Origin: an uncultured Pseudomonadota bacterium
GTDB lineage: Bacteria > Pseudomonadota > Zetaproteobacteria > Mariprofundales > Mariprofundaceae
Length of the DNA stretch: 64,000 bases
Reading direction: 5' to 3'
Assembly: GCA_913055645.1 (NCBI GenBank)
Contig: CAJXLC010000010.1
Location: 1 to 64,000 of the forward strand
Shown here: positions 9,772 to 58,079 of the stretch, piece by piece
Position numbering within the stretch: position 1 is the first letter of the stretch
How the letters are laid out: each line of letters opens with the position of its first letter
The notes under the pieces: generated by a model
What the model saw: only the letters and a program-made list of their open reading frames with translations
What the model was told of the DNA's origin: nothing
Database searches by the model: none
Program-made: the position numbers and the translations under genes

Positions 9772-10784
9772 CGATACGTCTCCTGCCAAGCATGGTAAAT
9801 ATGCTCGATATTAAGTGATGGCATACAGATAAAGTTATCGCATTGACGATTAAAACAAGGTGAACAATTTGCTTGTGGAATGATATGTCGATGCAATGCA
9901 CCCAATGCACCCATGCGCCAAGGTGCGGTTGCACCCCATAGTGTGATGGTTGGGCAATCACAAGCCGCAGCTAGGTGTGTGACACCAGTATCTTGCCCTA
10001 TATAGGCAGAGGCTTGTTGTAGTATGCCAGCAAGGGTTAGCAGAGAAAAACACTGAGGAGCAACGATGATATGTTTTCCTTGTTTGGCAATGGCTTGCGC
10101 ACGTTGCTTCTCCTCTTTATTGCCCCATAAGATGAGTAATGTTTGCTCTTTTTGTATATGTTTAGCTAATTGTTGCCACTGTGCATCAGGCAGGCGTTTG
10201 GTGATATAACTTCCACCAACATGTAAAACCGAAAAAGGAGCTTGAATCCCCATATCATGCAAGGCTTGCACCCCTTGTTTTTGCATCTCTGAGGTAATTT
10301 GAATATGTGGGGCATGATATGACTGTTCTTCATCTTTAGTGCCCAATGCAGCAGCAATGATATGCCGATAAAGTGGCACAACATGTTTTTCATTGGGATG
10401 AAATTTTACAGGGTGAACAAACCAGCGATTTGGCCATTCAGGGCTTTGCTCTCGATCAAAACCAAAGACTTTACACCCTGATTTGGCAGAAGCCCACGCC
10501 ATAAAACCTGATTTAATTAACCCTTGTAGATCAAAAATCATGTCAAAGTGTTCGTTACGTAATGCTTGAATCATTTGCCAAGCATGGCGTATACGATTAT
10601 CCCCTTTCAAGGCAACTTTATGCACCTTGACTTGAGAAGGGAATATATCAGTGACAAAGGCAAAGCGTTGGTCAACCAACCAATGAACTTCGTTTATTTC
10701 AGGGCGAGCAAGTAAATCATCAAGTGCTGGAAGCGCATGGATAATATCACCGAATGCCGATAGTTTTACAATCAGAACTTTCAA
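9768..10784 (-). CDS. waaC: LPS heptosyltransferase I
   Basis: Adds the first L-glycero-D-manno-heptose to Kdo2-lipid A from ADP-heptose at the cytoplasmic face of the inner membrane. The 338-residue GT9 protein opens MKVLIVKLSAFGDIIHALPA; D13 aligns with the catalytic aspartate of the family. The middle has DLQGLIKSG, typical of WaaC, and the donor half has GQDTGVTHLAAA and TLWGAT. It overlaps waaF upstream and the DUF3108 gene downstream by four bases each. Confidence 0.9.
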   Translation of the reverse strand: MKVLIVKLSAFGDIIHALPALDDLLARPEINEVHWLVDQRFAFVTDIFPSQVKVHKVALKGDNRIRHAWQMIQALRNEHFDMIFDLQGLIKSGFMAWASAKSGCKVFGFDREQSPEWPNRWFVHPVKFHPNEKHVVPLYRHIIAAALGTKDEEQSYHAPHIQITSEMQKQGVQALHDMGIQAPFSVLHVGGSYITKRLPDAQWQQLAKHIQKEQTLLILWGNKEEKQRAQAIAKQGKHIIVAPQCFSLLTLAGILQQASAYIGQDTGVTHLAAACDCPTITLWGATAPWRMGALGALHRHIIPQANCSPCFNRQCDNFICMPSLNIEHIYHAWQETYR

Positions 10785-15015: not shown

Positions 15016-15486
15016 ATGGCAATGGATGTGAAATGGTTGGAGGAAAAGGTTCTTTTGCGCAAGTTGGATGCAGAGGAAGTTGCGTTGCTTAAAGAGTTGG
15101 TGAAGGTAACTGAATATGCATCTGGTGAGCAGATTATGGAGCAGGGTAAATCGGGCGGTGTATTATACATGTTGTATTCAGGAGTAGCTGATATTACATG
15201 CCATGCCAATGGTCATGATATGCGTGTAGCGACAGCACGTGAAGCATCGTTGTTTGGTGAAATGTCTTTTTTAACGGGCGCTGAGGCTAGTGCTTCGGTA
15301 ACTGCACAAAAAACATGTGTGGTGTACAGCCTGACGCGTGCGGCGTATTCAGAATTAATGCAGAAAAATCAGGATTTGGTATTTGCATTGTTTACACATC
15401 TTTTGGCACATGCAGCGGGTGTTATTCGTCATATGAATGAAGAACATTTGGCATTTCAGCAGTATCTCATGGGTCGCCGAGTCTAA
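15016..15486 (+). CDS. Single cyclic-nucleotide-binding-domain protein
   Basis: A 156-residue protein consisting of one CRP-type beta-barrel domain (about 10-130) and a short C-terminal helix; there is no DNA-binding domain. SGGVLYMLYSGVADI and LFGEMSFLTG are the conserved parts of the fold. In the phosphate-binding cassette the arginine that usually contacts the cyclic phosphate is missing (GAEASASVTA where families have R-A-A/S), so it may bind another ligand or none. Strong ribosome-binding site AAAGGAG nine bases upstream. It is divergent from the LPS operon. Confidence 0.78.
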   Translation: MAMDVKWLEEKVLLRKLDAEEVALLKELVKVTEYASGEQIMEQGKSGGVLYMLYSGVADITCHANGHDMRVATAREASLFGEMSFLTGAEASASVTAQKTCVVYSLTRAAYSELMQKNQDLVFALFTHLLAHAAGVIRHMNEEHLAFQQYLMGRRV

Positions 15487-15745: not shown

Positions 15746-17119
15746 ATGGTTATAACGTTACTGGCAATTGCGAGTGTGCTTTATCTTGCATTACAATTGG
15801 AAGATAAATTTAAAGTGCCATCACCGTTGGGTTTGATTGTGCTATCATTTATTTTCCACGCCTTGATGGGCGATGTTTTTATGCTGACAGGTGATGCTGA
15901 GCACTTTGCGGAGTTGGTGATATTACTGCTTCCCATTCTGCTTATTGCCGATTCACTTGAATTAAGTGTTGCTGATTTAAAAGAGCATGGGCTTAGTTTA
16001 TTTTTTCTAGCTGTTGTGGCAGTGGCTTTGTCAGTATTGGCGGCATTACTAATCGGTCAGACTTTGTTTAGTGACTATAATCTATCTACGGCAGCGATTA
16101 TTGTTTTATTCGCAATGGTTTTGGCAACTGATCCGGTCTCGGTGGTGAGTATCTTTTCCAACTTTAATCTGCCGCATAAGCTAAAGATTTTATGTGAAGG
16201 TGAGAGTCTATTTAATGATGCTACGGCATTGATTGTATTCGTCTTTATTGGTTTGTATGCCCTGAATGGTGGCGAAATTACAGTCTCGTATGTGACAGAG
16301 ATAAGTGCGCTTGTGGTATTAGGTTCTTCCGCTTTAGGTGTAGCTTTTGGGTATGTCGGGTTTGCAATGTTGAAAACTACCACCAATCGCACTGCCGAAA
16401 TGATGGTTTTGATTTTGATGGGGTATGGCGGTTTTGAGCTGGCCGAGCATTTTTATACGCTTTTGCATATGCTTGGTATGCACTCGCATATACACTTTTC
16501 GGGTATTTTAACATGTATTTTTGCTACGATTACGGTGAATCATGTGATGATGCGGGAAGTTGATCAAGAAAATGCCATGATTGATCATGAAGAGGATGTG
16601 TTGCAAGGCAAGCCGATTACTGGCGGTGTGATTCGTACGGCAGTCAATAAAATCAAAGCGACCGTGGAAGAGCGTGAGCGCCATTTACGCACCAAAGAAG
16701 ATATGCAGTTATTGGCGCTGGTTGCCAATACTATGTTATTTGTTGCTATGGCAGAGTTAATCAATATGTCATTGTTATGGCAGTATAAAACAGAGATTAT
16801 TATTATGTTTTTGGCGACTACAGTGATTCGTGCTGTGATGATGGCAAAATTTGCGATTATTACCAATCAAACGGATAAAATGACCAATGTTAACTTTCGC
16901 TGGTGGGGAGTGCTCACCTTTGCAGGTATTAAAGGCGGTTTATCCATCGTGATGTTGATGATGATTCCAGCATCTTTTGAGCATTTGGAAATGTTTAAAG
17001 CTGTGGTTATTGGCGTTGTTTTACTTTCTACCTTTATTTATTCAGGAATTTTAATTGTGTTAATTGGCAAAAATCAGGCAGCCTTTTCCAAGGAAAAAGA
17101 GGCGGAAGGGGCACACTGA
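15746..17119 (+). CDS. Monovalent cation/proton antiporter, CPA1 (NhaP type)
   Basis: Inner-membrane Na+ or K+/H+ exchanger. About 457 residues with some twelve membrane segments. ATDPVSVVSIF, with the transport-site aspartate, and GESLFNDATALIVF are the CPA1 hallmarks. A cytoplasmic linker rich in charge (about 280-320) and AGIKGGLSIVM follow. The ATG at 15746 is chosen because GGAGG lies seven bases before it; the frame is open nine codons further to a GTG. No linked cation-sensing domain, so ion preference is unknown. Confidence 0.85.
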   Translation: MVITLLAIASVLYLALQLEDKFKVPSPLGLIVLSFIFHALMGDVFMLTGDAEHFAELVILLLPILLIADSLELSVADLKEHGLSLFFLAVVAVALSVLAALLIGQTLFSDYNLSTAAIIVLFAMVLATDPVSVVSIFSNFNLPHKLKILCEGESLFNDATALIVFVFIGLYALNGGEITVSYVTEISALVVLGSSALGVAFGYVGFAMLKTTTNRTAEMMVLILMGYGGFELAEHFYTLLHMLGMHSHIHFSGILTCIFATITVNHVMMREVDQENAMIDHEEDVLQGKPITGGVIRTAVNKIKATVEERERHLRTKEDMQLLALVANTMLFVAMAELINMSLLWQYKTEIIIMFLATTVIRAVMMAKFAIITNQTDKMTNVNFRWWGVLTFAGIKGGLSIVMLMMIPASFEHLEMFKAVVIGVVLLSTFIYSGILIVLIGKNQAAFSKEKEAEGAH

Positions 17120-51714: not shown

Positions 51715-52002
51715 TTATAGCGGCCACAATTGTATACCGAGGTATATGAAACGTAGGGTTAACACAGCGCAGCCTGCCACGATAAATGTATATGGCGTGC
51801 TCCAACCAATGTTTTGCATATGTTTGATACCTATATAGGTCGCACTTGCAGCCATAAAAAATGCAAACTCATTCATAATAAGCAGGCTTAAGATAGGTAT
51901 GCGGGTGATATGTTCGGCATTTATTTCACTGCCTATATGAATAATGAACATAAATATGAGTCCCAAAGCGAGTGCTAAATAGGGAAAATGAATTTTTTGC
52001 AT
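51715..52002 (-). CDS. Hypothetical small membrane protein, 95 residues
   Basis: A 95-residue protein with three hydrophobic segments (about 8-26, 36-57, 68-90), beginning MQKIHFPYLALALGLIF. No family recognised. The frame is uninterrupted and its hydrophobic pattern is regular, which supports it as a real inner-membrane protein. Divergent from dbpA with 113 bases between. Confidence 0.6.
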   Translation of the reverse strand: MQKIHFPYLALALGLIFMFIIHIGSEINAEHITRIPILSLLIMNEFAFFMAASATYIGIKHMQNIGWSTPYTFIVAGCAVLTLRFIYLGIQLWPL

Positions 52003-52115
52003 GGTTGAAACTCTTAAGAATATTGTATCACTTATTCAAATCATGTGATTTGATAGCTAGTAGTGGCTACTCTATGGCGTATATCCATTTTATATACGAA
52101 TGACAGGAATCCATT

Positions 52116-53501
52116 TTGAGCCAGTTACCTTTTTCAGAACTTAAATTACATACAAATGTATTGGAAAATTTATCATCATTGAATTATGATATGATGACCC
52201 CAATTCAGGCGAAAAGTTTGCCGCATATTTTGGCAGGCAAGGATGTGATTGCACAAAGTCAGACAGGCTCGGGAAAGACAGCGGCTTTTGGGCTTGGGTT
52301 GCTAGAAAAATTAGATGTTAAAAAGATGCATGTGCAATCATTGGTGCTTTGCCCGACACGGGAATTGGCAGATCAGGTAGCGAAAGAATTGCGTAAATTA
52401 GCGCGTACCGTGCCGAATGTGAAAATACTGACCCTATGCGGCGGTATGCCAATGCGCGCGCAGTTAGGCTCTCTGGAATATGGCGCACATATGATTGTGG
52501 GTACACCAGGGCGCATTGAAGACCATTTGAATCGCGGCTCGTTGCAATTGAAAGCTTTGCAGATATTGGTAATGGATGAAGCCGATAGAATGCTTGAAAT
52601 GGGCTTTCAGTCTGCCTTGGATGCGATTGTAAAACATACGCCTGAACAGCGTCAAACCCTGCTTTTTAGCGCGACATTTCAGGGGCAAACAAAATCCATT
52701 GCCAAACGTATGATGCAACAACCGGTCATAGTGCAAGTGGCATCTACACATGATGATAAAAGCATTGAGCAGCATTTTTATCAGGTCGGTGATGACGATG
52801 AATCACGTTTGCAGGCAATACGTTTGTTGTTGTTGCAATACAAACCTGAATCGGCGGTTGTTTTTTGTAATACCAAACGTGAGACAGAGGATGTTGCCAA
52901 TGCGTTGATTTATGAAGGCTTTAGTGCGCTGGCTTTAAATGGTGATTTGGAACAGCGCGACCGTGATCAGGTGATGGTGCGGTTTGCCAATAAGAGTGTA
53001 TCAATTCTTGTGGCAACGGATGTTGCTGCACGAGGCTTGGATATTGATGGCTTGGATGCTGTGATAAACTATGAGCTTGCCCATGATTCAGAGATTCATG
53101 TGCATAGGATTGGACGCACAGGTCGAGCTGGTAAACAGGGTGTAGCATGTACGTTATTTACGCTTCGAGATGACTACAAAATGACTGTGCTGGGTGATTA
53201 TCTTGAACGTGATATAAACGCAGAGGCACTACCCTCAAAAAATCTTTTGAAGGAGTCGGCTTTTAAAGCTGTGATGACAACCTTGCAGATTGGTGGTGGA
53301 AAAAAACAGAAGTTGCGCCCAGGGGATATTTTAGGCGCTTTGACAGCAGGTAATGATATTGCGGGCAAGCAAGTTGGTAAAATTCATGTGATGGATCAGT
53401 GGGCATATGTGGCTGTAAGCCGTGATGTGAGCAAGCTTGCTTTGAAAAAACTGGGTGATGGGAAATTGAAAGGTCGCTCATTTCGCGTTCGTGTTATTTA
53501 A
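52116..53501 (+). CDS. dbpA: ATP-dependent RNA helicase DbpA
   Basis: DEAD-box helicase acting on 23S rRNA hairpin 92 during 50S assembly. The 461-residue protein has AQSQTGSGKTAAF (K54), PTRELADQV, LVMDEADRMLEMGF, SATF, HRIGRTGRAG, and a C-terminal RNA-binding domain (about 385-461) with KQKLRPGDILGALTAG, KIHVMDQWAYVAV and RSFRVRVI, which identifies DbpA. The start is TTG, with AGGA seven bases before; no better start lies nearby. Confidence 0.93.
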   Translation: MSQLPFSELKLHTNVLENLSSLNYDMMTPIQAKSLPHILAGKDVIAQSQTGSGKTAAFGLGLLEKLDVKKMHVQSLVLCPTRELADQVAKELRKLARTVPNVKILTLCGGMPMRAQLGSLEYGAHMIVGTPGRIEDHLNRGSLQLKALQILVMDEADRMLEMGFQSALDAIVKHTPEQRQTLLFSATFQGQTKSIAKRMMQQPVIVQVASTHDDKSIEQHFYQVGDDDESRLQAIRLLLLQYKPESAVVFCNTKRETEDVANALIYEGFSALALNGDLEQRDRDQVMVRFANKSVSILVATDVAARGLDIDGLDAVINYELAHDSEIHVHRIGRTGRAGKQGVACTLFTLRDDYKMTVLGDYLERDINAEALPSKNLLKESAFKAVMTTLQIGGGKKQKLRPGDILGALTAGNDIAGKQVGKIHVMDQWAYVAVSRDVSKLALKKLGDGKLKGRSFRVRVI

Positions 53502-53521
53502 TAATAGTTTATACTTGCCAT

Positions 53522-54415
53522 ATGTTAGTTGAGGAAGGTTTTGAACGGGTGGAAGGTTTGTTGCAACGTTTGGCGATGCTGCGTAACTGGTCGCGTCAGA
53601 CGCTTGCTGCTTATCGTAGTGATTTAATGGATGTGCATACGTTTTTACAAACATCAAAAACCACGTTGTTTGATGCGCAAACAGAGGTGCTGGCATTGTA
53701 TTTAGGCACATTGATGAAACGCGGTTTGCGTGCCAGCAGCATTCAACGCAAGCGTAGTGCCTTATCGACTTGGTATAGTTTTTTGCAGCAAGAAGATTTT
53801 CGAGAGGATCACCCTGTACGTAACCTACCCAAACAGCGGCGCGGGCGTTCATTACCTAAAAACATGTCCGAAGATGATGTAAACCACCTTTTGAAGGCTC
53901 CTGATATAGATAGCATGCATGGCTTGCGGGACCGTTGTATGTTGGAATTGATGTATGCCACAGGTATGCGTGTTTCTGAATTGGTAGGCTTGCAATTGGG
54001 ATGTTTGGATATGCAAGCTGGTGTCTTGCGCGTGGTGGGGAAGGGCGATAAAGAACGTTTGATTCCTTTTGGAGAAGAGGCTGAAGTTTGGCTATCTCGG
54101 TGGCTGCATCAACGACCGCAGACTGCCAATGCTTTTGTGTTTCCCGGGCGTGCTGGAAAAGCTATGAGTCGCCAGAATTTTTGGTTGCGAATGCGAAAGT
54201 ATGCGGAGGAAATTGGCTTGAAACCGCTGCCATCCCCGCATGTTTTGAGGCATGCATTTGCGACACATTTATTGAATCATGGCGCTGATTTGCGTAGCGT
54301 GCAAATGATGTTAGGGCATGCGAATATCACCACAACAGAAATTTACACGCATGTTAGCCGTGTGCGTTTACATCAATGGGTTGATGCTGTGCACCCACTG
54401 GGAGGTGATGCTTGA
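53522..54415 (+). CDS. xerD: Tyrosine recombinase XerD
   Basis: Site-specific recombinase resolving chromosome dimers at dif with XerC. The 297-residue protein has the catalytic set R150 (ATGMRVSEL), K174 (GKGDKER), H240 and R243 (HVLRHAFATHLL), H266 (LGHANITTTEIYTH) and nucleophile Y275. The N-terminal SAM-like core-binding domain spans about 8-95. Full length and chromosomal context argue for a housekeeping XerD, though XerC cannot be fully excluded. Its stop overlaps the TTG start of the next gene. Confidence 0.88.
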   Translation: MLVEEGFERVEGLLQRLAMLRNWSRQTLAAYRSDLMDVHTFLQTSKTTLFDAQTEVLALYLGTLMKRGLRASSIQRKRSALSTWYSFLQQEDFREDHPVRNLPKQRRGRSLPKNMSEDDVNHLLKAPDIDSMHGLRDRCMLELMYATGMRVSELVGLQLGCLDMQAGVLRVVGKGDKERLIPFGEEAEVWLSRWLHQRPQTANAFVFPGRAGKAMSRQNFWLRMRKYAEEIGLKPLPSPHVLRHAFATHLLNHGADLRSVQMMLGHANITTTEIYTHVSRVRLHQWVDAVHPLGGDA

Positions 54416-55590
54416 ACGTGCATGTGATGATGCGCCAAGCCCGTAAGGCTGCCAATAAAGAGCAGTACAAAGAAGCGTGTGATTTGTATCAACAGGTGCT
54501 TGATAGTGATGCGATGAAAGATGATTTGGATGTCCAATTGCGCTTGGCTTGGTGTCATGAGAATTTGGGGCATGTGGATGAGGCGTGTGGTCTTTATCAA
54601 AGTGTGATTAAAAAATATACAGATGAAGGTGAGTTGGGGGCGGCGGAGGCCTTGCAGAAGTCTGTGGATGCACTGCTTGAGTCTGCGGTGGTAGTGCAAG
54701 AAGATGTTGAGGTTAAGGAAGAAGTTGTAGCTTTGAGTAAAGAACAGCTCATGGAAGCATTGCAGGATATGGGTGAAGATATTGAGTTGTCAGATGGTGA
54801 TATGTTGTGTGATGCGGGTGATTTACCTGACACTTTATGGTTATTAAAGCTGGGTACATTAACCGTGCATATGCCCGACTATACGGAAGATGAGCCTGAT
54901 AAACTGCGTGCCAAAGAGGGCGAATTTATATTGGTGGGTGAGTTGGGGGTATTTACGGATCAGCGACGTTCTGCCGCCGTATATGCGGAGGGTCTATGTC
55001 GTTTATGCGCGATTCCTGCCAAGTGTATTCGTGACTGTGATGATGTGGCATTTCAATGTGCGATGGAAAGGCTTCTGCGCAAACATTGGGTAGATCCTGT
55101 GCTCTCCCAACATACTATTTTTGAACGTGTAAATGAGGTAGATCGTTTGAACTTAAGCCGTTCTTTGGACGTTGTTGAGTTGGAGCCAGGGCAGTGTTTG
55201 ATTGAGGCTGATGAGGAGCACAATGGAGCCTATTTACTACAAATGGGATGTTTGTTTTTTTTGCACAAGGCTGATAGTCCAGCTGATGATGAACTCGATG
55301 ATGAAAGTGGTAATTTACTAACCAGTGTTGTGCCGGGTGATATGATACATATGGGTGGTTTATTGCATGGTTATAAAAGCCCATACCGTGTTGTTGCAGC
55401 GACCCCTGTGCGATTATTACATTTATCACGAGAAGCATTTGAACTTTTCGCATTGCGGCGACCATGGATTATTAAGGCTGTATTGAGCTATAGTCATCGA
55501 CCCGTGCATTTGCAGGTGATGCGTCCCAACGATGATTATTTATGGAAAAGTGATAGGTATATCGAATTGCGTAAAAATGTCCTAGACTAA
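54412..55590 (+). CDS. TPR protein with two cyclic-nucleotide-binding-type domains
   Basis: A 392-residue protein. An N-terminal TPR-like helical region (about 5-90) is followed by two CRP-type beta-barrels (about 110-225 and 235-345) and a short tail. The first barrel keeps a standard phosphate cassette (VGELGVFTDQRRSAAV, E177 and R186); the second is degenerate (HMGGLLHGYKSPYR, no glutamate). There is no DNA-binding domain. The tail VMRPNDDYLWKSDRYIEL recurs in the next gene. Start TTG with GGGAGG upstream, overlapping the xerD stop, so it is co-translated with xerD. Function unknown. Confidence 0.75.
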   Translation: MNVHVMMRQARKAANKEQYKEACDLYQQVLDSDAMKDDLDVQLRLAWCHENLGHVDEACGLYQSVIKKYTDEGELGAAEALQKSVDALLESAVVVQEDVEVKEEVVALSKEQLMEALQDMGEDIELSDGDMLCDAGDLPDTLWLLKLGTLTVHMPDYTEDEPDKLRAKEGEFILVGELGVFTDQRRSAAVYAEGLCRLCAIPAKCIRDCDDVAFQCAMERLLRKHWVDPVLSQHTIFERVNEVDRLNLSRSLDVVELEPGQCLIEADEEHNGAYLLQMGCLFFLHKADSPADDELDDESGNLLTSVVPGDMIHMGGLLHGYKSPYRVVAATPVRLLHLSREAFELFALRRPWIIKAVLSYSHRPVHLQVMRPNDDYLWKSDRYIELRKNVLD

Positions 55591-55616
55591 GGAGTGATGA
55601 CTCTTCGGAGGGTAGT

Positions 55617-56762
55617 ATGCAGGATTTTCAAAAAACATTTCAACGCGCACGAGATGCTGCAGCTAAAGGCGATTTTCAGATGGCACGTAAGTTGTATGCG
55701 GAGTTATGGCAATCTCCAACATGGAAACATGATACAGATGTACAGTTGAGTTATGCGTATTCCTGTGAGCGAACGGGTGATTATACCGAAGCATTACAAG
55801 CTTATAAGACATTGATGGGAAGCAGTGTTCATAGATCGAGTTTGGCAGGCGAACAAGATTTAGCCGAAGAGAGTATGACCCGCCTACGTGAGTTGATGGC
55901 AGATGTAGGGGAATCAGAAAATGACCCTGTTATTGATGAGGATCGCGATGCAGCGGAAGCTAAATTTGTAACGCGTTTGTTTGAGCATGGTTATAGCCGT
56001 TCATTATTGCCCGGTGATGTTTTGTGTCATCTAGGTGAGATGGCTGGACATATGTGGCTATTGAAGAAAGGAACCATTGATGCGGTCTTGCCTCATCAGA
56101 TCACTTCAAAATTAGAGGGAGCGCCGAGTCGTCCATGTTTGATGGGCGAGTTAGCATACTTTACAGGCATGCGCAGGGCTGCGACATTGTGTTGTGCAAC
56201 GCATGTTGAAGTGATTGAATTGTCTTACGAAACGATTCGGGTACTATTACAGGAAGATAAATCATTGTATGAAATGATGGATTATTTATTTCGGCATAGA
56301 CTTATTGCACATGTATTATCACGACATCAAGTATTTAAATTGTTTAACGAACCAGATCGTAAACGATTAACATCTGTTTTTGAAAATACCATCACAAGGT
56401 CTGGTCAAACATTGATGGAGCAGGGCGAAGATCATCCGCATGCTTATATGGTTCAGAGTGGCGTGTTGTTGTTATTAGACTGTAGCCAAGAAGAGGAACG
56501 TCTGCTTGGTAGCGTGCAGCCAGGCGACTTTTTTCACCTTGGTGGTTTATTGCGTGGTCATCATGCGGCTTATAAAGTGTTATCGGGCACGTCTTGCCAT
56601 TTGTTGCGTTTACCACGTCATGATTTTGAACCTTTTATGCTTCAACGCCCATGGTTGATAGGAGCTATTTTAAAACACGCTCGTTTATCTTCAGGCGAGC
56701 AGATTATGCGTCCAGAGGCAGGAAATGTGTGGGGTGCTGATAATTATATTGATATGAAGTGA
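55617..56762 (+). CDS. TPR protein with two cyclic-nucleotide-binding-type domains, paralog of 54412-55590
   Basis: A 381-residue protein with the same plan as the gene before: TPR-like region (about 5-95), first cNMP-type barrel with an intact cassette (MGELAYFTGMRRAATL, E178 and R187), second barrel degenerate (HLGGLLRGHHAAYK), and tail IMRPEAGNVWGADNYIDMK. The key residues fall one position apart in the two proteins, so they are clear tandem duplicates. AGGG lies before the ATG, and only 26 bases separate the genes. They may sense a nucleotide and act by protein contacts; the partner is unknown. Confidence 0.75.
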   Translation: MQDFQKTFQRARDAAAKGDFQMARKLYAELWQSPTWKHDTDVQLSYAYSCERTGDYTEALQAYKTLMGSSVHRSSLAGEQDLAEESMTRLRELMADVGESENDPVIDEDRDAAEAKFVTRLFEHGYSRSLLPGDVLCHLGEMAGHMWLLKKGTIDAVLPHQITSKLEGAPSRPCLMGELAYFTGMRRAATLCCATHVEVIELSYETIRVLLQEDKSLYEMMDYLFRHRLIAHVLSRHQVFKLFNEPDRKRLTSVFENTITRSGQTLMEQGEDHPHAYMVQSGVLLLLDCSQEEERLLGSVQPGDFFHLGGLLRGHHAAYKVLSGTSCHLLRLPRHDFEPFMLQRPWLIGAILKHARLSSGEQIMRPEAGNVWGADNYIDMK

Positions 56763-56918
56763 GTTTGGAATGCCGTGAATCAATGATACGGCGTAATAAA
56801 TCAGATACTATATCTGTCTAACATGAGCGATACTGCATGAATAAAATAGGCGCACGGCAGTATTTTATGTTAAAATGCGCCGAGTTATATTGGTTTATAT
56901 CTTAGGAGATTGAAAATC

Positions 56919-58079
56919 ATGGCGGAAAATCAGGAAATTGCGTGTTATTCACCCGGTTTGGCAGGTATTCCTGTGACAGAATCGGCGATTTCATCGGTGG
57001 ATGGAAGTATTGGGCATTTGGAGTATCGCGGTATTGATATTGAGCAACTGGCTGAGAAATCTTCCTTTGAAGAAACGTCATTCTTATTAATTTACGGACA
57101 CCTTCCAAGCGAAGCTGAATTAGCTGAATTTACCAATGCGTTGCATCATCATAGGCGTATTAAATTCCGCATACGGGATATTATGAAGTGTTTCCCTGAA
57201 TCGGCACATCCTATGGATTCTTTGCAAACAACAGTCGCTGTGATGGGTATGTTTTATCCCTTGCCGCACAATTTAGATGGGCACTTGAATGATGAACATG
57301 TGCGCACAGTATGCTTAAATTTGGTGGGTAAATTGCCGACTTTGGTAGCAGCGCATGCACGCATGCGTAAAGGCGATGATCCAATCCCGCCGCGTGATGA
57401 TTTATCTCATGCGGGCAATTTTTTATACATGTTAACGGGTAATGAGCCCACACCTTTGATGGAACGTATTATGGATGTGGCAATGATTGTGCATGCTGAA
57501 CATACGCTAAATGCCAGTACATTTTCAACCATTGTGACGGCCTCAACTTTGGCTGACCCTTATACCTGTATCAGTGCTGCGATTGGCTCACTTTCTGGTC
57601 CTTTGCATGGCGGAGCCAATGAAGATGTGTTACATATGCTCGATGAAATTGGACATGTGGATCGTGCTGAAGCCTACTTGCATGACAAGTTAGAGAAAAA
57701 AGAAAAAATTGCAGGTTTGGGACATAGGGTTTACAAAACAAAAGACCCACGAGCTACACTTTTGCAAGAGCTTTATGTCGAGCTAACCAAAGAAATGGGT
57801 GAAGACCCAACTTATGAAATTGCCAGTCGTATTGAGGAGCTTTCACGCAGTACATTGGGAGCCAAAGGTATTTGCCCGAATGTTGATTTTTATTCAGGTA
57901 TTGTGTATCGGAAGTTAGGTATTTCAACGGATTTATTTACCCCTATCTTTGCTGTTGCGCGTGTGTCTGGTTGGTTGGCGCATTGGCGAGAGCAGTTGGG
58001 TGTGAGCCGTATTTTCCGCCCTATGCAGATTTATACTGGTGAAAACGGACAGGATTATATCCCTATGGAGAAGCGTTAA
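56919..58079 (+). CDS. gltA: Citrate synthase
   Basis: Condenses acetyl-CoA and oxaloacetate. About 386 residues, the short type common outside the NADH-regulated hexameric branch. Active-site histidines lie in HAEHTLNAST and GPLHGGANEDVL, and the aspartate in GICPNVDFYSG. LEYRGIDIEQLAEKSSFEE near the start is typical. The ATG at 56919 is placed ten bases after AGGAG. TAAAAT near 56872 may be part of its promoter. A miniature element lies seven bases after the stop. Confidence 0.94.
   Translation: MAENQEIACYSPGLAGIPVTESAISSVDGSIGHLEYRGIDIEQLAEKSSFEETSFLLIYGHLPSEAELAEFTNALHHHRRIKFRIRDIMKCFPESAHPMDSLQTTVAVMGMFYPLPHNLDGHLNDEHVRTVCLNLVGKLPTLVAAHARMRKGDDPIPPRDDLSHAGNFLYMLTGNEPTPLMERIMDVAMIVHAEHTLNASTFSTIVTASTLADPYTCISAAIGSLSGPLHGGANEDVLHMLDEIGHVDRAEAYLHDKLEKKEKIAGLGHRVYKTKDPRATLLQELYVELTKEMGEDPTYEIASRIEELSRSTLGAKGICPNVDFYSGIVYRKLGISTDLFTPIFAVARVSGWLAHWREQLGVSRIFRPMQIYTGENGQDYIPMEKR

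Follow-up and report, generated by a model that had tools for sequence, protein, structure and literature searches.

What do two paralogous proteins, each built around tandem cyclic-nucleotide-binding (CNB) barrels, do directly downstream of xerD, the gene of the chromosome-dimer recombinase? The question is raised by a stretch of 64 000 nucleotides from an uncultured bacterium of the Mariprofundaceae (Zetaproteobacteria; contig CAJXLC010000010.1, positions 1–64 000; the window in the following), in which xerD is followed by two genes of one family (cn), here termed cnA and cnB. The first-pass annotation of this locus had proposed that the paralogues either act in the cell cycle in response to nucleotides, as suggested by the linkage to xerD, or simply share an operon with it. 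As far as gene order can tell, operon sharing of cn with xerD is supported, whereas a cell-cycle role through XerD does not fit genomes in which cnA outlives xerD, of which there are six. The reading that we favour, with a probability of roughly 60%, is that CnA and CnB are kinase-free, cyclic-nucleotide-responsive adaptors resembling the regulatory subunit of protein kinase A (PKA-R), which would be co-expressed with xerD and act elsewhere. It was built on direct observations: the domain plan, the conserved residues, gene order, purifying selection and the survival of cnA where xerD is gone. The features of the locus are as follows (positions in the window).

53522–54415, + strand: xerD, tyrosine recombinase, 297 amino acids; above the cut-off of NF001399, a model for the XerC/D subfamily in general, with the XerD model TIGR02225 as the best equivalog, under its own cut-off (315.8 bits against 329.6).
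54412–55590, + strand: cnA, TPR-CNB-CNB protein (TPR, tetratricopeptide repeat), 392 amino acids; TTG start, 4-nt overlap with the xerD stop.
54412–54690, + strand: TPR-like front of cnA, residues 1–93, five helices (Pfam TPR_6, E 1.3e-9; AlphaFold model).
54739–55101, + strand: CNB barrel 1 of cnA, canonical phosphate-binding cassette with E177 and R186.
55114–55506, + strand: CNB barrel 2 of cnA, without Glu/Arg; conserved PGDxxHxGGLL.
55507–55569, + strand: conserved tail of cnA, residues 366–386, with the invariant W378.
55617–56762, + strand: cnB, paralogue of cnA (33% identity), 381 amino acids; start 26 nt past the cnA stop.
55617–55901, + strand: TPR-like front of cnB, residues 1–95 (sub-threshold TPR matches; helices in the model).
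55953–56318, + strand: CNB barrel 1 of cnB, canonical cassette with E178 and R187.
56328–56690, + strand: CNB barrel 2 of cnB, conserved non-canonical HLGGLL pocket.
56691–56756, + strand: conserved tail of cnB (residue conservation).

Each protein can be divided into a front of about 2.5 TPR-like units, two CNB barrels and a tail that is conserved in the family. PF00027 was matched twice in each (Pfam; E 7e-19 and 2e-24), and scans against Pfam and NCBIfam gave nothing over cut-off beyond TPR and CNB, so that the absence of an output domain, already noted in the first-pass annotation, is confirmed for these two libraries. For the TPR-like front that had been proposed for both proteins, the matches are uneven: TPR_6 scores 38.5 bits in cnA against a cut-off of 26.3, and the TPR matches of cnB are all sub-threshold, but five N-terminal helices followed by two barrels are present in both AlphaFold models. 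These models are fair, with mean predicted local distance difference test (pLDDT) values of 83.6 (cnA) and 82.1 (cnB) and predicted template-modelling (pTM) scores of 0.69 and 0.70, respectively. Among 40 family proteins, the phosphate-binding Glu of barrel 1 is present in all and the Arg in each of the 39 that are readable at this position, in line with the intact first barrel described previously. The second barrel had been called degenerate. None of the 40 proteins has the canonical Glu and Arg there, but a motif of its own, H-x-G-G-L-L, is near-invariant (H313 in 39/40, G316 and L317 in 40/40, L318 in 38/40), which rules out that label: barrel 2 is conserved but non-canonical, not decaying. 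The matching tail holds as well, with W378 in 40/40 proteins and the Pro in 39/40.

The nearest known system is PKA-R, both in sequence-profile and in fold (Foldseek) searches. A sequence-profile search of the PDB, which is independent of the models, placed PKA RI-alpha at the top (E 9e-18) with an alignment that spans both barrels and matches the barrel 1 motif to RI-alpha GELALIYGTPRAATV. In common with RI-alpha and Bcy1, cnA and cnB have a docking front followed by two CNB domains in tandem, the canonical Glu/Arg in the first barrel and no catalytic domain of their own. They differ in that a TPR-like front replaces the dimerisation/docking domain, barrel 2 is without Glu/Arg, a conserved tail is present, the inter-barrel geometry of the models is different and neither protein is known to have a kinase partner. 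An N-terminal dimerisation/docking domain is a defining feature of PKA regulatory subunits; Pfam found none at the N-terminus of cnA or cnB, where the TPR lies instead. Because this domain is missing and the canonical cassette is confined to the first of the two tandem CNB domains, cnA and cnB are not members of the PKA-R family, although by analogy they probably work like it. Two bacterial groups are more distant. The Bact_Pyrredox proteins also have tandem CNB domains, but with a pyridine-nucleotide oxidoreductase domain, and no TPR is named in their description (PMC2246266); the words TPR and tetratricopeptide are absent from the text of that source. CRP/FNR regulators share the CNB fold, and by eye the barrel 2 cassette of cnA/cnB resembles the FNR consensus described there in length and pattern (PMC2246266). 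Unlike these regulators, cnA and cnB have two barrels per chain and no helix-turn-helix was found in them by Pfam or NCBIfam, the CRP model scoring far under its cut-off.

On this basis, CnA and CnB would be soluble adaptors without an output domain. Barrel 1 would bind a cyclic nucleotide, most likely cAMP, and binding would shift the two barrels relative to each other in the manner of PKA-R. Barrel 2 may have been re-purposed, either to hold a different ligand in a second pocket or as an allosteric and docking module, and the TPR front and C-terminal tail would bind a partner protein. The pair sits between xerD and a citrate synthase gene; translational coupling to xerD is probable, so that the amounts of CnA and CnB would keep pace with that of a housekeeping protein, and their action would not run through XerD. 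If this is right, kinase-free PKA-R relatives serve some marine bacteria as general adaptors that respond to cAMP, and no such use of tandem CNB domains was found in the literature searched. A limited literature search gave no description of a TPR-CNB-CNB family of the cnA/cnB type, and cyclic nucleotide, cNMP, tetratricopeptide and XerD are not mentioned in PMC8250860. The earlier statement that no system with this plan has been described thus agrees with that search, but the tandem-CNB core itself is PKA-R-like.

A tentative elaboration, which we regard as possible though not as the expected outcome, is a two-input sensor on the PKA-R plan: barrel 1 would read cAMP and the H-x-G-G-L-L barrel 2 a second ligand, the TPR adaptor would answer only to combined signals, and in a sister family the live barrel would be swapped. 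The genes of this second TPR-CNB-CNB family adjoin lolC/E and in most cases are flanked on the other side by a LolD-like gene (L169 2400–3617, which is G000:C3 of the window's genome, and L174, L175, L176, L178 and L179). The protein of G000:C3:2400–3617 shares the cnA/cnB plan of a TPR front, two CNB domains and no output domain within a housekeeping cluster. The lol-linked proteins are a mirror image of cnA/cnB, with barrel 2 canonical (Glu and Arg in 4/4) and barrel 1 altered (Arg to His in 2/4); they are without the MRP/W tail and form a separate clade (support 100/100). If the two-input proposal were true, these bacteria would hold several 'R-subunit' switches that work without a kinase, every one of them placed in a housekeeping operon of its own. 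Another protein of the TPR-CNB-CNB type (L171 6640–7854, G015:C77) adjoins lspA (TIGR00077 over cut-off), which like lol is a lipoprotein-processing gene.

The identity of the ligand admits a doubtful alternative in which the adaptor logic is unchanged: barrel 1 would sense cGMP, a nucleoside or another ligand rather than cAMP, making the proteins metabolite sensors. CNB pockets switch ligand readily: in the trypanosomatid PKA-R, where the Arg has been replaced, they accept purine nucleosides, which shows that such barrels can take on other ligands (PMC10959531); of the two kinds of cassette described, canonical and non-canonical, the latter is common in prokaryotes (PMC2246266). In the trypanosomatid protein, however, both pockets have lost the Arg and gained a Glu, whereas in cnA/cnB the second pocket alone is altered, with hydrophobic residues and His/Gly, and the Glu/Arg of barrel 1 in every readable member is the pattern of a cyclic-nucleotide binder, unlike that of the nucleoside-binding PKA-R.

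The distribution of the family was mapped with a profile from 26 family rows, searched against 78 Zetaproteobacteria genomes at a threshold of E ≤ 1e-30. Matches were obtained in 31/78; one of these (G026, 4.8e-31) is a distant relative and was excluded, leaving 30 members, of which the weakest match is that of G062 at 1.4e-110. A phylum sample of 398 genomes (class genomes included) gave no further clear member, the top match in a family-free genome being that of G026, and the listed genomes of genera g9, g10 and g4 have no family member. A maximum-likelihood tree calculated from the 40 family proteins, with four lol-linked proteins as the outgroup, resolved two groups, A with 20 rows (support 100/99) and B with 17 (99/100); the placement of three rows (G011, G020 and one of G022) is ambiguous. 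Tandem pairs occur in ten of the 30 genomes (G000, G001, G002, G004, G007, G012, G022, G056, G088 and G089) and most of the remaining member genomes carry one cn type. We propose that the cnA/cnB pair is the product of an old duplication. An obligate A/B heterodimer was considered as a rule and rejected, as the tree gives A-only and B-only genomes. This patchy spread would suit passengers without a fixed partner, i.e. generic cAMP receptors kept by drift near xerD with decaying barrels. Such an origin is unlikely, since the dN/dS ratio (nonsynonymous to synonymous substitution rates) is 0.05–0.18 in most computable pairs (0.30 for G008/G010), and the barrel 1 Glu, G316 and L317 of barrel 2 and W378 of the tail are each conserved in 40/40 proteins.

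Two variants were noted during the survey. A cn protein of 509 amino acids with a doubled TPR front is encoded at a distance from xerD (G015:C32, L142 10099–11628). Four proteins of 254–292 amino acids (L156 7125–8003, L157 5867–6736, L158 2187–3053 and L159 9207–9971) have a cnA-like TPR front at 37–44% identity, followed by a charged coiled-coil-like region without CNB; Pfam gave no match for the one of the four that was scanned.

The linkage to xerD is widespread. In 21/30 genomes the first cn gene is immediately preceded by xerD, either complete or truncated where a contig or piece ends. Where the first cn gene is not of the B type, its start can overlap the xerD stop at all 16 loci (by 4 nt at 13, by 13 nt at two and by 1 nt at one); at the five loci with a B-type first gene, a gap of 32–45 nt follows xerD. 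In the other nine genomes, xerD is represented by remnants (G005, G006, G009 and G042), has left none (G008 and G010), is on another contig (G025 and G047) or is met by a contig end (G062). With regard to conservation of the three-gene order, a check proposed with the first-pass annotation, the xerD–cn junction is kept in 21/30 genomes and tandem pairs occur in 10/30. The same annotation had named relatives with the paralogues elsewhere and xerD alone as the case that would speak against it, and such relatives exist: cn and xerD are on separate contigs in G025 (xerD on C242) and G047 (xerD on C71), and xerD occurs without any cn in G013, G016, G018 and G019. Citrate synthase is 3' of cn in 17/30 genomes (some pieces stop before that position). 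The surroundings of xerD were mapped in seven genomes without cn; in three of them (G013, G018 and G019) xerD directly adjoins citrate synthase, so that cn fills a slot between two possible neighbours. In the window, the flanking genes are the following.

52116–53501, + strand: DbpA-type DEAD-box RNA helicase (NF008744 over cut-off), ending 20 nt 5' of xerD.
56910–58079, + strand: citrate synthase (NF010639 over cut-off), 3' of cnB; adjoins xerD in some cn-less relatives.

Natural losses of xerD separate the two genes. No XerD or XerC was detected at E ≤ 1e-20 in G005, G006, G008, G009 or G010; in G042 the sole recombinase match is 28% identical (4e-21), and there is no XerD proper. These draft genomes are 81–96% complete, so that absence alone is weak evidence, and the rubble of xerD is the direct evidence of loss. 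In G005 and G006, some 230 codons have dropped out of xerD and its two ends are joined; in G009 just scraps of xerD are left, and in G042 nothing beyond roughly the final 35 codons can be recognised. Each lost xerD is followed by an open cnA (in G010 without the TPR front), and the barrel 1 Glu and Arg, the barrel 2 GGLL and the tail W are retained; among the xerD-less genomes H313 is changed, to Asn, only in G009. In the gene tree, G009 is placed among xerD-bearing genomes, G042 with the xerD-bearing G023 and G041, and G005/G006/G008/G010 in a separate clade, so that if the gene tree equals the species tree the losses look like at least three independent events. The dN/dS of cnA between G005 and G006 is 0.134, compared with 0.113 for priA, 0.24 for bamB and 0.41 for a gene that we take to be yfgM. 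As cnA persists under purifying selection without xerD, an XerD-dependent role is not why the gene is kept, and CnA/CnB probably take no part in chromosome resolution. An accessory factor of XerCD would be expected only where XerD is present, and six cn-bearing genomes are without it.

That CnA/CnB regulate XerD, with the TPR front binding XerD and tuning dimer resolution to the cyclic-nucleotide level, is highly improbable and as a general rule already contradicted, because the adjacency in 21/30 genomes, the codon overlap in 16 and the precedent that XerD requires a protein activator, FtsK gamma (PMC5052618), are set against six cn-bearing genomes without XerD (four with xerD rubble before a cnA under purifying selection), four with xerD and no cn, two with cn and xerD apart, and the occurrence of this known activator domain in 63/78 class genomes whether cn is present or not. 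Conserved gene order can thus mislead: the junction is found in 21/30 genomes, mostly with overlapping codons, and yet does not imply that the two genes act together, since cn stays in place where xerD has been deleted naturally.

Several observations nevertheless weigh against a PKA-R-like adaptor acting away from XerD. The linkage, seen in 21/30 genomes, is strong and would be compatible with a weak functional connection to xerD. The top Foldseek matches are tandem-CNB kinase regulatory proteins, with Bcy1 and PKA RI-alpha first, but the root-mean-square deviations (r.m.s.d.) of 12–21 Å mean that the individual barrel, not the arrangement, matches well and that the inter-barrel orientation differs or is mispredicted. 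Likewise, the best rows from VIA-align for cnA and cnB are single barrels (e.g. cnA against 1u12, Z 17.6, r.m.s.d. 2.0 for 130 residues). The cnA dN/dS of 0.30 for G008/G010, together with the loss of the TPR front in G010, indicates that constraint may be relaxing in this branch. The cnA of G008 is 44% identical to that of the window and the cnA of G012 50%, although most other compared proteins of G008 are closer. Faster evolution of cnA as a sign of relaxed constraint following the loss of xerD was itself considered and discarded, as the lol-linked paralogue and LolD of G008 show the same excess divergence. Finally, a cAMP signal is plausible because the class III cyclase family PF00211 is near-ubiquitous in the class (77/78 genomes, with eight matches in the window's genome), but these figures are family matches for which cyclase activity and a cAMP product are predicted only.

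The genomes without xerD are of interest in their own right. Five genomes of the window's genus (G005, G006, G008, G009 and G010; loci L133, L134, L136, L137 and L138) are without XerC, XerD and the FtsK gamma domain, and RecA is present in all five. FtsK gamma was found in five of the six other genomes of the genus; the exception, G003, is also without a RecA match, so that this draft may simply be incomplete. In G042, xerD was lost and FtsK gamma kept. An integron integrase over the TIGR02249 cut-off is encoded in four of the five XerCD-less genomes (L105 1450–2484, L106 261–1277, L107 1141–2157 and L108 1450–2541). We only note this enzyme as a candidate replacement for XerCD, other tyrosine recombinases also being present; XerL of the Legionellales (PMC9765430) provides a precedent for the replacement of an Xer system. 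The loss of XerC, XerD and FtsK gamma with RecA kept makes chromosome-dimer resolution in such a bacterium testable. The shrunken xerD of G005 (L133 ~10530–10715) and G006 (L134 ~16250–16425) is an open frame of 58–59 codons that overlaps cnA and is perhaps a leader for cnA translation; its dN/dS between the two genomes is 0.51, from 20 differences only.

With regard to the layout of the locus in the window, the gene coordinates of the first-pass annotation, the TTG start of cnA within the xerD TGA and the 26-nt spacer before cnB are exact. A GGAGG lies about 6 nt 5' of the TTG and is retained in G009 despite the loss of xerD, which supports this start. No terminator-like site above chance was found in 51900–57200, and there is none between xerD, cnA and cnB. 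Since the helicase gene ends so close to xerD, the transcription unit of xerD–cnA–cnB may begin farther upstream. The second Xer protein of the window's genome has XerC as its best-scoring model, also below the cut-off of that model. A single-barrel CNB protein of 156 amino acids is encoded at 15016–15486 (+ strand) of the window, where it precedes a gene matching a Na+/H+ antiporter model below cut-off.

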